Assembly: GCA_030220185.1 (NCBI GenBank)
Contig: JASPKZ010001230.1
Coordinates: 186,001 to 250,000, forward strand
Length of the DNA stretch: 64,000 bases
Direction: 5' to 3'
Source: Diploptera punctata
Lineage: Eukaryota; Arthropoda; Insecta; Blattodea; Blaberidae
The notes under the pieces: generated by a model
What the model was told of the DNA's origin: nothing
What the model saw: the letters and a program-made list of their open reading frames with translations, nothing else
Databases searched by the model: none
Translations under genes and position numbers: made by a program
Part shown: positions 3,968 through 64,000 of the stretch, one piece after another
Layout: the number at the start of each line of letters is the position of its first letter
How positions within the stretch are numbered: position 1 is the stretch's first letter

Positions 3968-4098
3968 AGAAATTAGCTCAATACTAATAAAATTCATGAT
4001 AAGATTCCGTTGAGGTATTAAGTCACAATAGTAAAATATGAATAAAATTATAAAATAGCCACCTTATAAGTCCGTCTTCTCAACTTAAAATGTTTTAA

Positions 4099-4142
4099 CA
4101 CACTATAGGCCTTTCGGGACTAGTCCCATCATCAGCAGTATG
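4099..4142 (-). ncRNA. Hammerhead ribozyme, most complete in window
   Basis: Minus strand: stem I strand CATACTG, core CTGATGA (4129-4135), stem II GGGA-CTAG-TCCC, GAAA, palindrome AGGCCT, then A at the cleavage position, then the stem I partner TAGTGTG. All seven stem I positions pair (two wobbles) and every core base is canonical. Predicted cleavage lies between 4106 and 4105 on the minus strand. Stem III has no hairpin loop, implying dimeric action as proposed for minimal hammerheads of Penelope-like elements. Confidence 0.75.
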
Positions 4143-4196
4143 AAGTAGGTCTGTATTTGAGTGCTTCAACGAAGGCCAACAAATAAAGACCTACTT

Positions 4197-4240
4197 CATT
4201 GTGCTGATGATGGGACTAGTCCCGAAAGGCCTTCAGTGTG
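4197..4240 (+). ncRNA. Hammerhead ribozyme-like core, right arm
   Basis: CTGATGA at 4204-4210, stem II TGGGACTAGTCCC at 4211-4223, GAAA at 4224-4227, AGGCCT at 4227-4232. The cleavage-position base is T4233. Stem I has two central mismatches compared with the other arm. Confidence 0.65.
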
Positions 4241-4799
4241 TTAAAACATTTTAAGTTGAGGAAACGGACCTATAAAGTGACTATTTTACAATTTTATTCA
4301 TATTTTACTATTGAGAAATTAGCTCGTTTTCCAAATACAAATTACCCTATTTTTCTTTAAAGGTGGAATTTTCAGAAGCTTAAATCAACAATAATTAAAG
4401 CTGTAATCCACTGATATCATCATCCAGGATATTATGTTTTAATTTATTCTTATTTGTAGGCGCTTCAACTTGATGCCTTTATCCAATAGGTTGTGTAGAA
4501 GTTAACGATATGTTTTTAAAATTGTATTAATAAATTATTGTAATTATTTATTTCTTATTTTTAGTTTAACATCTATCTTTTAGGTACTTTTACGTGTCCC
4601 ATGTCATTCGAGCTTTACAGTGACACGAGCTGTCGTGAGAGGACATTCGTACTTTTTTTTACCAAATGAGGACACAGGGGTCTCCCCGAATGAGTAAATC
4701 AGCCCAATGCGGGGCCACCTCCGAGACAGTAAAACATATAAGACAAGACGCCAATCACTCACACATAAATTATTATTAAACAAATTGGCATGCTTAACT

Positions 4800-15227: not shown

Positions 15228-15757
15228 TAAAAAAATAAATAATAGCTTTAAAAAACTGAAACAACACACTTTATTAGAAAACCAAACTAAAAAACTAAAA
15301 CAAAACGCTTTATTAGAAAACCGAACTAAAAAATAAAAAATAATTTTAATTTCCAACACGCTTGGGATAAAATTAAAGTGGCCAACAAAAAAATCATCTC
15401 CAACACATCTAGAATAAAACTAGAGTTATCTACAAAAAAAAAAATTACCATCAAAAGCGTGGGGTGCTTTTTATGATTTTTACGTTTTCTTCTTAGATAC
15501 TTTACTTTTACCAATATATGTTTATTGTCAAATATATTAATTGATATAGAGCACCCCACGCTTTGATGGTAAAATATATATTTTTTGTAGGTAACTCTAG
15601 TTTTATTCTAGATGTATTGGAAATGATTTTTTTTTTGTTGACCACTTTAATTTTATCCCAAGCGTGTTGGAAATTAAGATTATTTTCCATTTTTTAGTTA
15701 GGTTTTCTAATAAAGCGTGTTGTTTTAGTTTTTTTAACTATTATTTATTTTTATTCG
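15228..15757. repeat. Large AT-rich foldback
   Basis: Two arms of roughly 200-230 bases flank a centre of about 80 bases (around 15470-15550). Shared landmarks in opposite orientation are TTTCCAACACGCTTGGGATA, TCTAGAATAAAACTAGAGTTA and AGCGTGGGGTGCT. The left arm also carries a partial direct duplication of the CTTTATTAGAAAACC segment. No hammerhead core, tRNA module or protein is visible. Short frames on both strands mirror each other and are not genes. Confidence 0.8.
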
Positions 15758-27500: not shown

Positions 27501-27733
27501 ATAATATTAAAAAAATTCTGGGCTATGTGGCCGTGGTCTATAACTGGTGTTTCTTCCAGACGTTTCCCCCTCAACTGTGGAGGGCATCTTCAATGCCGAG
27601 TGCTTCTAGGTGGTATTCCCTTGCCGTAGACTTGACTGTGAATTAGATACCCTCTACAGTTGAGGGAAAACGTCTGGAAGAAACACCAGTTATAGACCAT
27701 GGTCACATAGCCCGGAATATTTTAATATTAATA
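27501..27733. mobile_element. Foldback PLE-type element with hammerhead-like core
   Basis: Arms at about 27501-27583 and 27650-27733 are inverted copies (GGCTATGTGG, ACTGGTGTTTCTTCCAGACG). The centre holds a GCCGAGTGCTTC segment. The left arm has a near-complete hammerhead core on the minus strand; in the right arm the core is eroded. Confidence 0.65.
27559..27593 (-). ncRNA. Hammerhead-like core (C3 changed)
   Basis: Minus strand: TTGAAGA where CTGAAGA is expected, stem II CCCTC/GAGGG, GAAA, palindrome ACGT, C. The first core base is mutated, so cleavage activity is doubtful. Confidence 0.45.
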
Positions 27734-28680: not shown

Positions 28681-30774
28681 ATGTATATATTTTTTTACTT
28701 AGTTCATTGTAATGAGCCCATATTCTATTGAGACCTTCACTTGTTTGGTTATTTACTGATTCTTGATTACTTTTGGGTAACCATGTCATTTTTCTCACTT
28801 AATGAACGTTTGAATATACAAAATTAATCACAGATTAGCTGTTTTCTCATTAAATAATTTTTATGGTGATGAAGTTTTGAAAGAATAAAGATGAATAAAT
28901 TAATCATGTTCTAAATTAAGAGATAATTGATAGATCCCAGGTTTCTAAACTCAAAATTTAGATTTAGGCACCTAAAATTAAAAAAAAAGTATAACAATTT
29001 TTAAAATACCTTTTTACTCGTAGGTTTTTAAAAATGAGTAATACCACATAATATTTAACAGCAGAACAGATTAAGAATTATAAAGTTAATAAAAGAAATC
29101 AAGTTAATTAACTCTAGTAAATCAATTTATTAACAAAAGAGTAAAATTGTATTTTTTTAAATTATTTTCATGCTCTGATAAAATTCCAAAGAATTACAGT
29201 CTTATTAATGCTGAACTGAAATGAATAATGCAAATGTATTTTTAAAAAAGCCATTTTAAGTTAAAAAACACAAAATAGATACAAATGGGTAAAATAGGCT
29301 CAATAGAATTAAAAAGAGACAATTTTAGGTCCAAGAACATAAAATAGGTACCAATGGATAGAATAGAAATTTTTAAGGACAGTTAAATTCTCCGGGTTGT
29401 AAAATGTTTTATAAAATGTATACTGCGTAATTGGTTTATATTTATTCTTTCAGGGGAAAAAATCTAGTAAATAATGAGACATAGTCCTAGCATATCTCCA
29501 AAAGTAAAAACTATAAGCAAATTTTAATTTGCATTTAAATTCATTGTTTCTTACACTATACTTCCTTCTAGATTACATAATGCAAATATTTTTCTACCTT
29601 GGAAATTCAAATGATATACATTAACGTACAATATGACATTAGTGAATATAGTTACTGCAGTAATACTATAATTCAGATTCTTTCAATTTGAAAAGATATT
29701 TTTAGTTGTCATAAATTATATTATTTATTTTATTTTGAGGTATATTAATATATGTAATGACCCTACACAGTTATTCAAAATCTTCATCCAGTATATCCTC
29801 AATCTTCTACTCTTGTCATTGAATGGTTAAAAAACATATTGATCTAATTAATTGAAATGTTATTATCAGAAATAACAATTACTTTTTACATAAAAATAAT
29901 AATCTACATAATATTGCCTTATGAATAATATTAACAATTTTTATTTATAAACCAAATTTAAGTAATATTCAAATTTAAATACTTATTTTAATGATGGTTG
30001 TCAAAAAAAAGTAACATGTAATATAGTTGCAATAATTGTATACCATATTATTGGAAACTAAAAACTCAATTGTTCCTAATTTTTTTCAAACTTCTTAATT
30101 ATATTATAGTGAATTTACTACACTTGTATTACAATATATTATCATGGTCATTACCTGAAATTTCAGAAATATCAAACCTTTACAAAATGCTTGTAATTTA
30201 TTCACATTTTTATTTTAAGCTAAATTTCCAAAACATGGTAGTTTTTAATTGTTTTTGTTTCTAAAACCCTAAATGAATATTTTATTTAAAAGTCACAATC
30301 AGTGCTAAAATGATTTAAACACCTTGTATTGTAGAATAATAATTGCAACTTTGAAGGATTGCACATGAGTATTGTCATGGCCATATGGCACATGCTCTGT
30401 ACATATCAGTTCTCATGGTTTTCCATGATAAAATAATCTTATCTTGTACTTTTATTAAAGATTAAAATTATTAATGCAGTGTGTTCTAAAATTCATTTAA
30501 CTATATTATCATAAAATTTACTTAAAAAGTCCATGTGCTTGACAAAATTCAGTGTGTTGCTATCCACAGTAATCTTTTGTAATATTGAAATTTCAAAAAT
30601 AAAAGCATAGAAAACATATTACCTGAATTTCCTGTAATTTGTCTGTTAGTTAATGAACAATAGGTCTAATAGTAAATACTTTATAGAGACAATGATTATA
30701 TAACTTTGTCATAAATCATTAGTATATTTGTATTATTTGTTACTTTAGTTATAGTACTTGTGTAATTTTATAAG
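28681..30774. other. AT-rich spacer, no feature recognised
   Basis: About 2.1 kb, the longest stretch of the window without a recognisable repeat or gene. Short frames only. Confidence 0.5.
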
Positions 30775-30980
30775 GAGGCCAACAAATAGTAGCAGATACT
30801 CATCCAGCTGGTGATAGAAGTTAACTTCCGAAAGGCCTCCAGATAACATTTTAAATATAATATTTTAATACAGTTGAAGATGACGGCACCTGCCAAAAGG
30901 ACATATTTTTAATTTTTATCTTATGACGATTTACCTCAACGGAATTTGATATGAATTTTATTAGTATTGATTCTGTAATT
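30775..30980 (+). mobile_element. Solo PLE-type terminal repeat with hammerhead-like core
   Basis: Contains a hammerhead-like core at 30808-30839, a second weaker one at 30874-30902 (TTGAAGA, GGCA/TGCC stem, AAAA in place of GAAA), and an extension (ACCTCAACGGAATTTG, GAATTTTATTAGTATTGA). The extension is the reverse complement of the one-sided extension at 3980-4025. No inverted partner is present. Confidence 0.6.
30808..30839 (+). ncRNA. Hammerhead-like core (A6 changed)
   Basis: CTGGTGA at 30808-30814 (one deviation from CTGATGA), stem II GAAG-TTAA-CTTC, GAAA at 30830-30833, AGGCCT palindrome, C at 30839. Confidence 0.5.
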
Positions 30981-31072
30981 TTATTAACCGACCTTTAAAG
31001 TTTATTTTTTATTATTTATTAATTTAATTCTGACACTTATCACTTTCTTTTAATGATTAACACTTTATATAT

Positions 31073-37790: not shown

Positions 37791-37869
37791 GATGTTAGTT
37801 TGATGTTTTTATTATTCATTTCATACATCTCAATGATGGATAAAGCATATTTGAAGAGAAAAATTATAC

Positions 37870-37941
37870 ACTCAGACTGGGGCTTGAACCTAGGACCTTT
37901 GGTTTTCTAGGCCAATACTCTAATGACTGAGCTACCTGAGC
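37870..37941 (-). tRNA. tRNA-like module, left arm
   Basis: Acceptor GCTCAGG/TCTGAGT pairs 7 of 7 with two wobbles, T-stem 4 of 5, anticodon stem 4 of 5 with loop CTAGAAA. 72 nt. Same module type as 32570-32641. Confidence 0.5.
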
Positions 37942-38324
37942 AAGTTCCAACCTAAATGCAAATTTTTCTCTTATATATGCTGTTAATTCCCATGCACCAA
38001 ATGCTATGAAACCTTTGCTTCTATTTTGCAAATGACAGCTTCTTTATTAAGAAGACATTTATTTGGGAATTTTACATTACATTATAAAGCCTGTACGGCT
38101 TCTTTCAATGTATGATTTACCCATCATTGAGATGTATGAAATGAATAATAAAAACATTGAAAGAAGTCATACAGGCTTTATAACGTAATGTAAAATTCCC
38201 AAATAAATGTCTTCTTAATAAAGAAGCCACCATTTGCAAGATAGAAGCCAAGGTTTTCATAGCATTTGGTGTGCAGGAATTAACAGCATATATAAGAGAA
38301 GAATTTGCATTTAAATTGGAACTT

Positions 38325-38395
38325 GCTCAGGTAGCTCACTCATTAGAGTATTGACGTAGAAAACCAAAGATTCTGGTTCAAACCCCAGTCTGAGC
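38325..38395 (+). tRNA. tRNA-like module, right arm
   Basis: Inverted counterpart, 71 nt. Acceptor GCTCAGG/TCTGAGC is nearly complete, but the anticodon stem is eroded (TTGAC/ACCAA) and one T-stem base is lost. Confidence 0.4.
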
Positions 38396-38536
38396 ATATA
38401 ATTTTTCTCTTCAAATATGATTAGTTATTTAATATTTAAAGAAAGTGACATTATGAGATTTATTTTAAACAATAGGAGTTACAAATATTCTACAAATATG
38501 AAGTGGTTCTCAGCATATCTAACTCCTACTATTTGA

Positions 38537-39129
38537 TGTTAGTTGATTATCTTATTTTACACTTTTTTATCTCTTATAATTTAAACTAATGTAGGATTAT
38601 CTTGATCATTATTTCTGTACCGTAACTAAAATTATCATACAGGAATTCTGTGATAAAATTATTAACTATTAAATTTGATAGGAATAAATAAAAATTGAAA
38701 AAAAAAGTATTAAATTTTTAACACCATTGATAATAATATATATTATTGAAATTAGTGTGATATTATAGTTTTTAATTGTTACAACTGGTGTTGTTTCTGT
38801 ATTTTCAATTTCCATTTCCTTTTGTCTAATCAGTCCTTCAACCTCTCTCTTTCGTGGGTGTGATATTAAAACACTGAATCAACTCAGATATATTTTTGAT
38901 CAATTTATGTATTTATTTATTCATATATTATTTAATTGCTTATTTGTTAGCACATTGCATATTTGTGTCTGTAGGCATGTGTGAATAATATGTTGCATGT
39001 TTTAGTAATATATATAGGTATTCATTTTGTGATAAATAGATATATTTTGTTGTAAAATGTGGTTGTGTTTTCTAAAAGGCAAGTAATTTTACCATTAACT
39101 TTTTTTTAAGAATTAACACTGTTATTCAT
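38537..39129. other. AT-rich spacer, no feature recognised
   Basis: No coding or repeat signal was seen. Confidence 0.4.
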
Positions 39130-39370
39130 TGAAGTAAAATTTTATCACCTCACCTCACATTCTTCTTAGACTAGTTTTGGATCCTTCTTTGGTTCCATCA
39201 TCAGTATTTTCACTATCATTGTTATGTTGTCTTGAAGAGTTACATCTTGCTCCCTTCAAGACGACATAACAATAGTCATGAAAATATTGGGGATGGAACC
39301 GAAGAAGGTTCTGAAACTATTCTAAGAAGAAGAATAATATGAGGTGGGGCGATAAAATTTTACTTAAATA
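39130..39370. mobile_element. Foldback PLE-type element with two hammerhead-like cores
   Basis: Arms 39133-39230 and about 39262-39368 are inverted: AAGTAAAATTTTATC, CACCTCA, TTCTTCTTAGACTAG, GGTTCCATC, and GTTATGTTGTCTTGAAG near the centre. The two cores have accumulated different changes. Confidence 0.7.
39169..39204 (-). ncRNA. Hammerhead-like core, left arm (G12 changed)
   Basis: CTGATGA (39198-39204), stem II GGAACC/GGATCC with one mismatch and loop AAAGAA, AAAA in place of GAAA, palindrome ACTAGT, C. Right-arm counterpart at 39287-39322: TTGGGGA core, stem II GGAACC/GGTTCT, intact GAAA. Taken together they imply an intact ancestor. Confidence 0.5.
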
Positions 39371-51520: not shown

Positions 51521-51749
51521 GGAGTTTAGTTTTAATATTAACCAGTATTAAAATATAGTGAAGGTAGTCATTGATATACTGCATTAACACTGTCTTGTGT
51601 TCGAAGTGTTAAATGTTGTCTAGATTTAAAATGGTGTTCCACAACTTCCAAGCACTTGAAAGAGCCATACAGAGCATATATGGTTATCTTACTCTATGAT
51701 CACAGGGATAACTGATAAAAATGTATTTCGTACTGTGTCTTATTTCAAT

Positions 51750-53075
51750 GCTTTACAATAATCATACCAATGAATCAATATGGCTTCACCCCGGGCAGAT
51801 CAACGCTACACGCTGTACATGAAATTATAAAAGAAATAACAACTACCTTGGTGCAACCCACCACCCCTCTGTACGCAATCTTCATAGATTACGCTAAAGC
51901 CTTCGATAGCATCAACAGGAATATACTCATTCAAAAGCTAGAAAGCGTACTAGGTAGGACTAGCAATGAACTACAAATAATCGCGTCTGTGCTAACCGCA
52001 AACTCTGTGGCTATACACGACAGCATAACTACGTCGAAAAATATCATCCAGACAAGAGGGGTACTACAAGGAGACCCGCTGAGCCCAATACTCTTTAACG
52101 TCATGACGGCGGACATCGGTCAGGTGATAGACACAATGAACGTCAAACTCCTTATGTACGCAGATGACATGGCTATCCTCTCCAGGAGCCTAGAAGACCT
52201 ACAAGCAGCCATGGAGAAGATCAGGAAATGGGCACTAGAAAATTCAATGGTAATAAATAGCTCAAAGACCAAAGCTATGAAATTTAGGAGAGGAGGAAAA
52301 CTATCCAAGAGAGATCACCTCACATGCGACGGGTCAACTCTAGAATTCGTTAGCAGCTTCAAATACCTAGGAATAACATTACAGACCACCGGAACAGTAT
52401 TCTCGATGCATATACAAGAGCGTGCTACAGCTGCCACAAAAGCCATTTATGACATTCCAAAGTTACGAAACCTATCCCTACCAACGGCAATAGCATTATT
52501 CAACATCAAAGTTATGCCGGTTGCCACTTACGGAATCCAGCTAATATGGACATATCTCACAGCCAAAAATTTCATGAAACTTGAAAGCATAAAAGCGAGA
52601 TTCCTAAAACGGGCTCTTTCAATTTCAAAATTCACAAGACATAGCTATGCCTACATAATAGCAAAGGAGTCTTACTTCATAGAAGATATCCGAAAACACT
52701 TCGATCTACCAGAAACGCAGGCATACAAAACAGCAATCGAGGAGAGACAGAGAAAAGCCAGAGAGATTCCGAACGAAATCACGGAAACGGAAGCATTAAA
52801 CACAGACGAATGGAAAGGACCAAATTTTCGGCTTCGCCACTTATACACACGCTTCGCCGCTCACGGCTTCCATGGCAAAATATGTCATAAACAAAGTTAC
52901 CATGAACCTGAGGAGTCCTGCATCTGTAAACTCTGTAGCAAACAGTGCCCAAAGTATCACTTAGTGAAGTGCGACAACAGAACCAAAACAATTCACGAAT
53001 TAATAGCAAAATCGTAAAACCATGTATGTAATATAAGTGTACACATTGTGTTTAATAAATATATAATAATAAGGT
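51750..53075 (+). mobile_element. 5'-truncated non-LTR retrotransposon, young copy
   Basis: Comprises the 415-codon reverse-transcriptase ORF and a short 3' UTR ending in AATAAATATATAATAATAAG. Its composition is richer in G+C than its surroundings and there are no stops, so insertion is recent. No clear target duplication was found. Confidence 0.85.
51770..53017 (+). CDS. LINE reverse transcriptase (partial, uninterrupted)
   Basis: RNA-directed DNA polymerase of a non-LTR retrotransposon, the enzyme for target-primed reverse transcription. The retained part begins at QYGFTPGRST, which corresponds to a point inside the fingers region, so endonuclease, ORF1 and early RT motifs are lost. Visible motifs: FIDYAKAFDS (catalytic Asp at residue 40), QGDPLSPILFN (100-110), YADDMAILS (catalytic Asp pair at 132-133), FKYLGI, then a thumb and a Cys/His-rich end (C386, C389, C393, H397, C401). 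The ATG at 51770 is probably internal, since the upstream codons stay open for a few residues (IIIP). It lies in a Papss intron on the sense strand. Inactive in cis because of truncation. Confidence 0.9.
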   Translation: MNQYGFTPGRSTLHAVHEIIKEITTTLVQPTTPLYAIFIDYAKAFDSINRNILIQKLESVLGRTSNELQIIASVLTANSVAIHDSITTSKNIIQTRGVLQGDPLSPILFNVMTADIGQVIDTMNVKLLMYADDMAILSRSLEDLQAAMEKIRKWALENSMVINSSKTKAMKFRRGGKLSKRDHLTCDGSTLEFVSSFKYLGITLQTTGTVFSMHIQERATAATKAIYDIPKLRNLSLPTAIALFNIKVMPVATYGIQLIWTYLTAKNFMKLESIKARFLKRALSISKFTRHSYAYIIAKESYFIEDIRKHFDLPETQAYKTAIEERQRKAREIPNEITETEALNTDEWKGPNFRLRHLYTRFAAHGFHGKICHKQSYHEPEESCICKLCSKQCPKYHLVKCDNRTKTIHELIAKS

Positions 53076-53479
53076 GTATACAAAATATTTTTTTCAATTT
53101 CAAAATATGAATGGTCTAGAAGGTTGCATAGACTGGCCTTAAATGAATGAAAAAAAAAGCTAATCTAACAACTTTTCACCCAGGTGCAACCGCATCAAAT
53201 ACTTAAAAATTTTGTAAAAATTGTAAATTAAGAATTTTGGGAATTTTACCATACAACTTTCTGCAATTGTGCATTTTGTAATGATATTTTGTAAAGACTG
53301 ATTTTCAACAAATATGGAATTGCATGGGTGAAAGTTTGGGGCATCTTGACAAGGGTAAGGATTAATAGGGAAGCGAATGTGTAGTGTCTCACTGAATTAA
53401 ATTGGGATCATTTTGTCTTAAATTAAAGTATTATGAGTCTGTTTATCTTACCTCAATATTAATGTTGATTTGTTCTTGG

Positions 53480-53512
53480 AACATGTTTCGATTAGCTTCT
53501 AATCATCCTCAG
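53480..53512 (-). ncRNA. Hammerhead-like core, left arm
   Basis: CTGAGGA (53506-53512), stem II GATTAG-AAG-CTAATC, GAAA, palindrome ACATGT, U. All core positions fit CUGANGA/GAAA. Stem I pairs poorly. Confidence 0.55.
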
Positions 53513-53561
53513 CATCTTGGTCAGACTGGTTGGATTTATGTTGTAAACCCTGGCCAAGATG

Positions 53562-53595
53562 CTGGAGGATGATTAGAAGCTAATCGAAACATGTT
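53562..53595 (+). ncRNA. Hammerhead-like core, right arm (one-base insertion)
   Basis: CTGGAGGA carries one extra G relative to the left arm. Stem II and GAAACATGTT are intact. Confidence 0.45.
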
Positions 53596-53692
53596 CAAGA
53601 ACAAATCAACATTAATATTGAGGTAAGATAAACAGACTCATAATAATTTAATTAAAAGAACCTCAAAATGTTACTTCCTAAAATAAAACATA

Positions 53693-61594: not shown

Positions 61595-61763
61595 TTTCTT
61601 AATATTTAAAGGAAGTGATACTATGAGGTTTATTTTAATTAATATATTTATTAATTAAATAAAAATAAAACGTTTTATTTGATTTTCATATTTATTATAT
61701 AATTCAGTGACAGCTGTTTCGGTACACTGTACCTTATATTTGAAGAGAAAAATTTTCGCCTAG

Positions 61764-61832
61764 ACCGAGACTCGAACCCGGGACCTTTGGCTTGCCAGGC
61801 CAAACGCTCTACCAATTGAGCTACTGAGGCGA
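61764..61832 (-). tRNA. tRNA-like module, left arm
   Basis: TAGCTCAATTGGTAGAGCG A box, anticodon-stem region TTTGGC/GCCAAA with loop CTGGCAA (GGC, Ala-like), T-arm CCGGG-TTCGAGT-CTCGG. The acceptor GCCTCAG/TCTAGGC pairs only at the outer four positions. Confidence 0.5.
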
Positions 61833-62185
61833 GTTGCAATCTAGACGCAAATTTTTCTCTTATATACGTTGTAATTCCCTCTCCCAAATGCTTTTGAAAC
61901 CTTTGCTTCTATCTTTGCAAATGGCGGCTTCTTAGTTAAGAAGACATATATATTGGGAATTTCTCTTCAAATATAATTTATCTTTCAGTGAGAAATGTTA
62001 AATTAATAACAAAAACATCATTAGAAGCCTTACTAGCTTTATAAAGTAATGTTAAATTCCCAATATATATGTCTTCTTAACTAAGAAGCTGCCATTTGCA
62101 AAGATAGAAGCAAAGGTTTCAAAAGCATTTGGTGAGAGGGAATTACAACGTATATAAGAGAAAAATTTGCATCTAGATCGCAACT

Positions 62186-62258
62186 CGCCTTGGTAGCTCA
62201 GTTGGTAGAGTGTTTGGCCCGGCAAGCCAAAGGTCCCGGGTTCAAGTCTCGGTTTAGG
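62186..62258 (+). tRNA. tRNA-like module, right arm
   Basis: Acceptor GCCTTGG/TTTAGGC (four Watson-Crick pairs, two wobbles), anticodon-stem region TTTGGC/GCCAAA, loop CCGGCAA (GGC) with C in place of U33, T-arm CCGGG/CTCGG. AAAATTTTT follows, a possible Pol III terminator. Confidence 0.5.
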
Positions 62259-62400
62259 CGAAAATTTTTCTCGTCAAATATAATTTATGTTTCAGTGAAA
62301 AATGTTAAATTAATAACAAAAACAACACTGTACCTTCTTCAGACATGTTAACAAATTATGAATTGTGTTCCAACTGATCTAAGCAACAATACAACAATAT

Positions 62401-62755
62401 TTATTTAAATTTTTTAATTTAACAAAGGGGATTCATTCGAATCAAGTTGAGAATTTAACAGTTTGTTACTACTTTTAAATATATTGTTAGAATGTTCACA
62501 ACTCACCTCATATTTGTAGATTTCTTAAAGACCACTTTTGATATGTTATCAATTTTTTCTAACAAGGAAAGTACTTGGGCTCGAACAAACACATATGCAC
62601 CAAAATTGTGTGAGAGATAATTTAAAGGTCCCTTATTACAGTAGTGATACTCGCTCATCTGCAAAACTCTGCAGTCGTCCGTTAGAGGCCTCTGTGTGTG
62701 TCACGCCTCATTGCACATTGACCTGCCGGTACGCTAGTCGAGACCAGTAGGGACG
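62401..62755. other. Spacer with a PLE-end scrap
   Basis: 62500-62572 (CTCACCTCATATTTGTAGAT, ATCAATTTTTTCTAAC) matches the terminal piece at 43734-43815. The rest, up to the transposase frame, may be the 5' non-coding part of that transposon. Confidence 0.5.
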
Positions 62756-64000
62756 GTGCAGTGTGCCTCTGAAGTTGGGTTTTGTGAAGTTATTTGCATA
62801 GTGAAGCGTCAGATGGGTCGGCGATTGGTAATCAATCCTGCTAATGTATTTCTATTGATTGAGATGAAGTTACGAAGAACTCTTCTTCGTGAAGATGGTA
62901 TTGGTGTAGAAGATGAATCAGTCGCATGTTTTCTGGTATCTATTATAGTGCAGAAATATGAGCATAAGTTAGAAACAGATACTGTTGTAACACTAACACA
63001 TAATTATGATGCTAGTGATGATAATGATGAACAACTCATTGCAAGCGGTAGTGATACGGCAAGTGCAGGAAGAGGAGATGGAAGTAGTGAAAGTGAATTC
63101 CAACCCTCTCCTGATAAGAAGGTTAAAGTCACAAGTATCATCATGGTGTTTGATGACAACACACTACAGAACATATACAATGATTATCATGTAAGAGGTT
63201 TCAACACATACGACAAGCTTCTGAAAAGATATCCTAAACTGAAGGCTAAAAGCAGTGTTAAAAACATACTGGACTACATGGCAAAGAAACGAGAAGGAAA
63301 TACAGTTTTCAAAGGAAATCGTACACTGCAGTTCAACATCATCAAGGAGCATGTAATGGCAAAATTCAATGAAGCACGAGAATGCGGTTCTGCCATTCAT
63401 TATTGGCATTTACAACATTGGGCATTGGATGTAGCCAAAAATCTTGGGTGTACAAACTTTACAGCTTCACTAGAATTTATTACTAATTTGAAAAAGGAGT
63501 TTAGGATAACATCACTATGCTCAAAGCACGAAAAGATAAGGATGACGAAGAAGAGCTGATTCAAATGTTTGTTGCTGACGTCAATGAGCATATCACGACA
63601 GAAAAAATCGAAATTAGTTCTATATGAAACTGTGATCAGAGTCAGTTCAACTATGAGCTTTCTTCTGACAGAACGCTATCCATGAAAGAGGAGAGAAACA
63701 CTGTCTCGATGTTACAGTCAGTTAACAGTGCAACACATAGTTACCCGATCGATGTTGCTACATCAACGGAAGGACGATTGGCAGACAAACTCTATATTTG
63801 CTTCCAAGAACCTAGTGGAACGTATGGACCCTGTGTGTCAAGGGAAATAGAAACTTGGTGCCCTCCAAATGTCTTCGTCAATGCAAGTGTGAGTGGGAAG
63901 ATGACGAAACAACATCTGAAGACGTTTTTTGTGTCAGGGTTTTGAATCCAAATTTGTCAAGAAAGTCATTAGTACTTTGTGACTCCTGGTCTGGACATGA
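62756..64000 (+). pseudogene. DDE-superfamily transposase, frameshifted, runs off window
   Basis: An open frame of 267 codons (62756-63559) has an acidic N-terminus and a helical segment at residues about 135-240 (NTYDKLLKRYPKLKAKSSVK, FNEARECGSAIHYWHLQHWA) resembling the N-terminal part of Tigger/jerky-like transposases. After a frameshift near 63505-63550 the frame gives DEEELIQMFVADVNEH, a TGA at 63625-63627, then NCDQSQFNYELSSDRTLSM (first Asp) and SVNSATHSYPIDV, CPPNVFVNASVSGKMTK. A second frameshift near 63930 leads to LVLCDSWSGHD (second Asp). The C-terminus lies beyond 64000. The copy cannot make a full enzyme as it stands. Confidence 0.82.

Follow-up and report, generated by a model that had tools for sequence, protein, structure and literature searches.

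Short foldback inserts of probable Penelope-like origin with a hammerhead motif in the genome of Diploptera punctata

How does a 334-bp palindromic insert bearing hammerhead ribozyme motifs come to lie between two exact copies of a short target sequence in the genome of the insect Diploptera punctata? The insert occupies positions 3980-4313 of the window, the whole 64,000-nucleotide stretch that was analysed (assembly GCA_030220185.1, contig JASPKZ010001230.1, positions 186,001 to 250,000, forward strand). Comparison with relatives in the 3.12 Gb host assembly suggests that it is, very probably, the product of a Penelope-like element (PLE), a retroelement. Two 3' units would have been joined head to head, flanked by a target site duplication (TSD), and would carry the hammerhead of the PLE RNA. 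The PLE 3' unit contains the end of an endonuclease ORF, the hammerhead and an AT-rich 3' region, and one of the two copies is tailed.

The insert and its hammerhead motifs

The insert is ORF-less and consists of inverted arms placed head to head, with an exact 12-bp unstranded repeat, AGAAATTAGCTC, on both sides (left copy 3968-3979, right copy 4314-4325). In a placement test a match of at least 12 nt in TSD geometry was seen in 11 of 5000 random placements within the 64-kb window. The direct repeat and inverted arms reported in the initial annotation were confirmed. The arms (4023-4159 and 4180-4316) are 91% complementary. The left copy of the PLE 3' unit, or pseudo-LTR (3980-4159, minus strand), is tailed and is 5'-truncated at unit position 20. 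The right copy (4160-4313, plus strand) is tailless and extends to a recurrent 5' end, AGTGCTTC. The tail is a PLE-type extension of about 43 bp confined to the left arm (3980-4022, minus strand), with the sense core box TACCTCAACGGAAT...ATGAATTTTATTAGTATT. The right arm retains a remnant of the endonuclease ORF C-terminus, VLQRRPTNKDLLHCADDGTSPERPSVC* (4161-4244, plus strand), whose frame passes through the hammerhead and which corresponds to the end of an endonuclease-like ORF in a genome relative, L211. Apart from this 27-codon remnant, the RT-endonuclease ORF is absent; the insert is an ORF-less PLE derivative, not an autonomous element. It had been described as an inverted terminal-repeat insert. 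That outline stands, with the correction that the arms are inverted pseudo-LTRs with a one-sided tail and unequal 5' ends, and so differ from transposon-style terminal inverted repeats.

The pattern CTGATGA-T-GGGACTAGTCCC-GAAA occurs twice in the window, each time without mismatch, at 4135-4112 (minus strand) and 4204-4227 (plus strand). Its chance expectation in the window is 0.00 with up to 3 mismatches, and that of the core alone (CTGATGA, 8-34 nt, GAAA) is 1.68. GGCCT follows the GAAA in each arm. The left-arm hammerhead (4099-4142, minus strand) is made up of CUGAUGA plus an extra U, stem II GGGA/UCCC, GAA, and A-GGCC-U as stem III. Its stem I has 7/7 pairs, and the predicted cut lies between 4106 and 4105. 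The invariant bases, stem II and seven-pair stem I noticed at first sight on this strand are all there. The same description had overlooked the extra unpaired U between A9 and stem II (position 4128 in the left arm, 4211 in the right). The right-arm hammerhead (4197-4240, plus strand) has an intact core and 5/7 stem I pairs, the mismatches at pairs 3 and 4 leaving 2 pairs contiguous from the core; a cut, if any, would fall between 4233 and 4234. The type I hammerhead invariants present are the core, A15.1-U16.1 and H17, accompanied by the extra U after A9.

A full descriptor combined the core, stem II, A15.1-U16.1 and H17, with the extra-U bulge allowed. It matched the window once at 6 or more of 7 stem I pairs (left arm) and twice at 5 or more (both arms). 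The same two settings gave 10 and 30 matches in 400 random first-order 64-kb sequences, the chance expectation of the left-arm motif being 0.025 per 64 kb. The covariance-model check came out negative: the Rfam hammerhead models, run without a PLE-hammerhead positive control, matched neither motif, even at E<=10 on 51-54 nt. Rfam miRNA matches to the insert are weak, far below the cut-offs, and arise because the insert forms a hairpin. The predicted fold of the whole-insert RNA is a hairpin of -194.8 (plus strand) or -206.4 (minus strand) kcal/mol, and therefore the hammerhead is probably buried in foldback transcripts. The claim that each strand encodes a self-cleaving RNA is half supported: the left motif is complete and a candidate for cleavage, stem I of the right one is damaged, and the predicted burial counts against the claim. 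The unconstrained minimum-energy fold of the motif differs from a hammerhead, which counts against the main explanation. Dimers are predicted to form favourably; they would pair mainly through the stem II palindrome, whereas known dimeric hammerheads pair through stem III.

Other features of the window were also recorded. Ten ORFs were scanned with Pfam, and RVT_1 gave the only match above the cut-off; the RT ORF (51719-53014, 432 aa, RVT_1 5e-33) is presumably LINE-like. An open frame at 62738-63556 (273 aa) is without a Pfam match. Two large near-palindromes (37843-38422 and 61734-62283) have a tRNA-like Rfam match in each arm and are foldback SINE-like elements; a quick look found no convincing TSD at either. 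Self-complementary repeats at 1-162, 15289-15734, 27502-27730, 39128-39369 and 53418-53656 are 77-95% identical to their own reverse complements.

Relatives in the genome and the link to Penelope-like elements

A blast search of the insert against the window revealed a related, tailed solo unit at 30772-30973 (plus strand), whose hammerhead core is decayed (A6 to G). It represents a second family, E2, the insert's own family being E1. An 11-bp unstranded TSD, TGTAATTTTAT, flanks it (30761-30771 and 30974-30984; 4/5000 random placements). Its hammerhead has a different palindromic stem II from that of the insert, and the two tails are 92.5% identical across 40 nt.

The insert as a query gave 3073 first-look candidates in the genome and the E2 unit gave 3573, all unconfirmed as copies; 40 were scored for each. 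The search for further copies of the insert thus yielded many relatives. The 39 other scored E1 places were fetched; dropping two duplicate loci left n=38 of the 40 for comparison. Both samples were selected by likeness to long queries (the whole insert and the whole E2 unit), and the E1 foldback sample favours the type seen in the window, with the right arm full. Of 30 E2 loci, 24 face an inverted partner at a distance of 0-1328 bp, and no partner is visible at the other 6. Exact patterns of the units had 0 matches in a viral contig collection. Two stretches from the genome contig collection were rejected as relatives, their scattered short matches to the units being taken as chance.

Some E2 loci have a more complex arrangement. 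In L067 a 500-bp stretch contains two like-oriented E2 units (1212-1369 and 1470-1691), with inverted pieces nearby, and the pair is possibly a partial tandem. E2-type foldbacks in L053 (172-1501), L060 (1691-2751) and L079 (1692-2862) enclose 1.06-1.33 kb of other sequence, in which a tRNA-like sequence, a simple repeat and an RT-like ORF were seen by eye. TSD-like repeats with one mismatch surround the whole foldback in L060 (13 bp) and L053 (11 bp).

An E1 query that avoided the hammerhead produced 774 candidates, of which 40 were scored and 35 newly fetched. In 6 of these 35 copies the end of a PLE endonuclease ORF (...NPLYK...) lies just upstream of the unit. The ORF frame is unbroken through the hammerhead, reading ADDGTSPERP or a variant, in L185, L208 and L210; in L190 a shift follows after it has passed into the unit, and it is shifted near the junction with the unit in L186 and L196. 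For four of the six, longer pieces of upstream DNA (L211-L214) were retrieved. A single ORF in L211, and likewise in L212, contains an endonuclease-like part plus the ORF end, with GIY-YIG matches of 22.0 (E 2e-4) and 17.0 bits, respectively, both below the Pfam cut-off of 22.6. The L214 ORF had no GIY-YIG match, so that 2/3 upstream ORFs tested matched overall, and the L213 stretch had no ORF of 80 aa or more. In these E1 copies, then, the unit is linked to an endonuclease ORF with a GIY-YIG-like part. Further features expected of PLEs were found as well: pseudo-LTRs that are often inverted, with an optional one-sided tail, and TSDs of variable length.

GIY-YIG (PF01541) is abundant in the genome; 150 of 45022 candidates were scored, and all those listed exceed the cut-off. 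For 40 further GIY-YIG loci, picked from the genome match list, a hammerhead lies behind the domain in sense in 13 and in antisense in 2, compared with 10/800 shuffles. The distance from the beginning of the endonuclease match to the sense hammerhead is 335-378 nt in 12 of 13 loci, and 821 in L126. Other PLEs in the genome share the hammerhead layout, extra U included. When PLE 3' ends were aligned, a tail-like extension with ACCTCA was seen in 5/19. The likeness of the tail to those of GIY-YIG PLEs is weak in E1 (5 to 193 of 1000 shuffles) and absent in E2 (544 to 935); one PLE locus, L087, matches the E2 3' end at 72% over 72 nt (E 6e-4). The PLE origin put forward in the initial annotation is supported by these comparisons, as the units follow a PLE-type endonuclease ORF end and other PLEs carry the hammerhead layout. 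Separately, a hammerhead-like family, AAGCTGACGATAAAACANAATTGTTTTGAAACATGTCC, recurs near the GIY-YIG loci L091, L111, L123 and L126 (CTGAAGA in L111).

Assembly of the foldbacks and the place of the hammerhead

In the proposed mechanism the PLE protein would cut both target strands with a stagger of about 9-15 bp, and each exposed 3' end would prime reverse transcription of a PLE RNA. One cDNA would start at an outer start site and the other at an inner one, and therefore the tail would remain at one end only. One cDNA would reach the recurrent 5' end AGTGCTTC and then be joined to its partner, an incomplete cDNA, at the latter's 3' end. The PLE RNA would carry the hammerhead, which is of the minimal type I kind; its stem III is self-complementary, and one additional U follows A9.

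TSDs called by a fixed rule vary in length from 9 to 15 bp. They were found in 18/38 E1 copies vs 2/228 mismatched flank pairs, and in 14/24 E2 foldbacks vs 2/144; the rule found none in 20/38 E1 copies and 10/24 E2 foldbacks. The tail that the insert's right arm lacks was located in 38 of the 39 other copies fetched, on one element side (none in L023; partial in L016 and L038). L022 has an additional tail-like match in its flank, and weak ones occur in some other E1 copies. In E2 the match to the inverted partner has its end between positions 106 and 162 of the 202-nt query, reaching the tail at most. The tail count per foldback is one in both families.

The ends of the arms follow a pattern. 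Counting an arm as full when it reaches unit position 2 or less, the 38 E1 copies have a full right arm in 26, a full left arm in 7, both in 0 and neither in 5. A full arm next to a truncated one is consistent with a jump to the other cDNA once the 5' end of the RNA has been reached. Arms that are never both full would be unexpected if two finished cDNAs joined freely, which counts against the main model, and a central deletion of a perfect palindrome could also produce them. The recurrent end AGTGCTTC is shared by many arms. It was rejected as the sole transcription start: in 6 copies the sequence goes on past it into the endonuclease ORF, and it is therefore at most one of several starts.

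A PLE cDNA might instead snap back and copy its own arm into a foldback, and such self-priming is invoked for inverted PLE junctions of Adineta vaga in the available part of PMC3846280. Two observations favour it. First, TTGA/TCAA sequences occur at many junctions. Second, the arms of one copy resemble each other. In E1, arms of the same copy share 4.4 non-consensus variants vs 1.27 for different copies (left-left 1.25, right-right 1.46), and the own right arm ranks first for 16/38 left arms. In E2, for the 20/24 foldbacks with full enough arms, the values are 1.8 and 0.46 (0/10000 permutations), and the own partner ranks first for 13/20. Only 2/54 doubleton variants are common to both arms of one E1 copy, and the E1 likeness therefore rests on subfamily variants. 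Against self-priming, a copied-back arm should bear the tail, yet the partner arm has none; truncation may affect either arm; and 19/38 E1 copies have a few extra bases separating their arms. We consider self-priming unlikely.

Where the ribozyme would act on the template was examined from the positions of the ends. Sampled arms mostly include sequence 5' of the expected cut, and therefore their template RNA was not cut there. The whole-insert and whole-E2-unit samples favour copies that span the cut, a bias absent from the samples whose queries start 25 nt away from it. In the latter, 2/40 E2 and 1/40 E1 copies (L192, exactly at the cut) end within 3 nt of the cut, the others being spread. 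Among 20 E2 copies selected early on, three had 5' ends at +1 to +2 relative to the expected cut, and two further arms end at -3; this apparent pile-up was rejected, as it was not upheld with the queries starting 25 nt away. The E1 reference used for arm-end mapping begins at AGTGCTTC, hence ends beyond it are unplaceable in the E1 test. Because inserts do not accumulate at the cut, uncut RNA was mostly used as template. By analogy with published minimal hammerheads, the PLE hammerhead may need a partner RNA or protein in order to cut.

Combining two-strand priming with this result, the joint proposal is that every short PLE insert of this genome is put together anew from a pair of cDNAs, one primed on each target strand, at two alternative start sites. 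One cDNA would run to the fixed RNA 5' end and jump to the unfinished other, the RNA would be uncut by its own ribozyme, and the standard hammerhead of the PLEs here would have the extra U regularly and a self-complementary stem III. Taken as a whole, this proposal is tentative, its chance falling slightly short of even.

The hammerhead could also be a resemblance without RNA function, a by-product of coding or of chance. The motif encodes ADDGTSPERP in E1-type copies, it has no Rfam match and it is known from DNA sequence alone. All loci of the earlier samples were compared by a scan of both strands, flanks included, which required the core, a stem II of at least 4 bp and a palindromic stem III (G-U allowed), with neither the extra base nor stem I demanded. 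It returned 64 unique motifs, E1 and E2 dominating the count. The base after A9 is U in 60 and A in 2; one motif has two extra bases and one has none. Stem III is AGGCCT in 40 (mostly E1/E2), ACTGCAGT in 10, ACATGT in 7, ATCGCGAT in 2 and a singleton in five. In 12 hand-picked representatives, stem II pairs are formed in 47/48 cells and the inner three stem I pairs in 34/36, with several pair types in each, and the extra U pairs as a first stem II base in 0/12. These pairs were counted on hand-placed fields, as stem III came out in the wrong place when 13 hammerheads were aligned with MAFFT. The length of stem II and the palindromy of stem III are scan rules, so their covariation is partly selected and gives weaker support. 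The inner stem I pairs lie outside the rules and vary with pairing kept, and the E1 consensus, the E2 consensus and the PLE motifs reading LLTMEISSETAV were found without any stem rule. The hammerhead is read in different frames, ADDG..SPERP in E1-type copies vs LLTMEISSETAV in other PLEs, which speaks for constraint on the RNA. The core is intact in 55/80 E1 arms, duplicates included, with substitutions that resemble drift. One E1 subfamily has 5 stem I pairs only, and stem I of the E2 consensus is 3 bp, both against the main explanation. Together with the low chance expectation of the left motif, these comparisons make a by-product improbable, and they support the hammerhead motif despite the absent Rfam match.

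A foldback retrozyme, in which the whole 334-bp foldback is the mobile unit, transcribed and copied whole, is a still poorer candidate. Each of the 40 places scored with the whole-insert query matches on both strands, as such copying would predict, but resemblance to that query was how the sample was selected. Certain arm-end pairs are found repeatedly, the most frequent in 5/38 E1 copies and another in 4/38, as also expected from whole-unit copying; against this, 26 distinct pairs occur among the 38 copies. Left arms of E1 form no lineage apart, arm-specific lineages being absent, and 6/30 E2 loci lack an inverted partner. The likeness of each arm to its own partner, the absence of a left-arm lineage and the 26 arm-end pairs make it more likely, from these comparisons, that the foldback is rebuilt at insertion rather than copied whole. 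A MITE, that is, a DNA transposon with terminal inverted repeats, would account for the palindromic shape plus TSD and is nevertheless highly implausible, since the TSD varies from 9 to 15 bp instead of being fixed in length, the tail is one-sided and the arm ends unequal instead of symmetric, and the units also occur solo or behind an endonuclease ORF.

Known systems and meaning

The defining paper on the minimal type I hammerheads of PLEs is said to be that of Cervera and de la Pena (2014). Such hammerheads of PLEs and Terminons, compared here by description only, resemble the present motif in a stem III that is very short or absent and in having no clear tertiary contacts, as far as the available text of PMC6155905 and PMC7229834 goes. 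The axolotl hammerhead, as described in part of PMC7229834, has a one-pair stem III and a palindromic tetraloop, and works better as a dimer. Animal retrozymes, in the same partial source, are likewise non-autonomous retroelements, of ~170-400 nt, with type I hammerheads; they are tandem direct repeats, whereas the units here are mostly inverted pairs or solos.

The closest structural parallel is with the Pen2a-type PLEs of Adineta vaga. According to the available portion of PMC3846280, these have head-to-head inverted pLTRs, an optional 31-bp tail on one of them, a 9-10 bp TSD and other sequence caught between the pLTRs. In contrast, no ORF lies between the arms here, and the short form is abundant (3073 E1 and 3573 E2 candidates, unconfirmed as copies).

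The PAc PLE of Anolis carolinensis is informative for the mechanism. As given in the accessible sections of PMC11167929, the PLE protein extends each of the two target strands, the tail lies between two start sites, and a hammerhead is present; cleavage was found only with protein, and insertion was independent of cleavage. The hammerhead C3 and G8 immediately precede an ATG with which stem II begins; we take this to be the same CUGAUG-AUG layout as here. The cut in PAc lies 26 bp after the start codon (PMC11167929); here, counted from that A, the expected cut lies at 24 (E1) and 26 (E2) nt. The PAc motif overlaps the start of an ORF; here it lies at the end of the endonuclease ORF.

Short foldback PLE families were not found among the titles and abstract beginnings listed by searches of the openly searchable literature. 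The insert belongs to a known class, and its many genome relatives hint at how such inserts arise. Its hammerhead layout escapes current Rfam models. The PLE insertion mode, the frequent inversion and the role of the hammerhead are not settled in the literature, as far as its accessible parts indicate, and the many short inserts of this genome, with scorable junctions, tails and TSDs, make the two-strand priming model testable from sequence.
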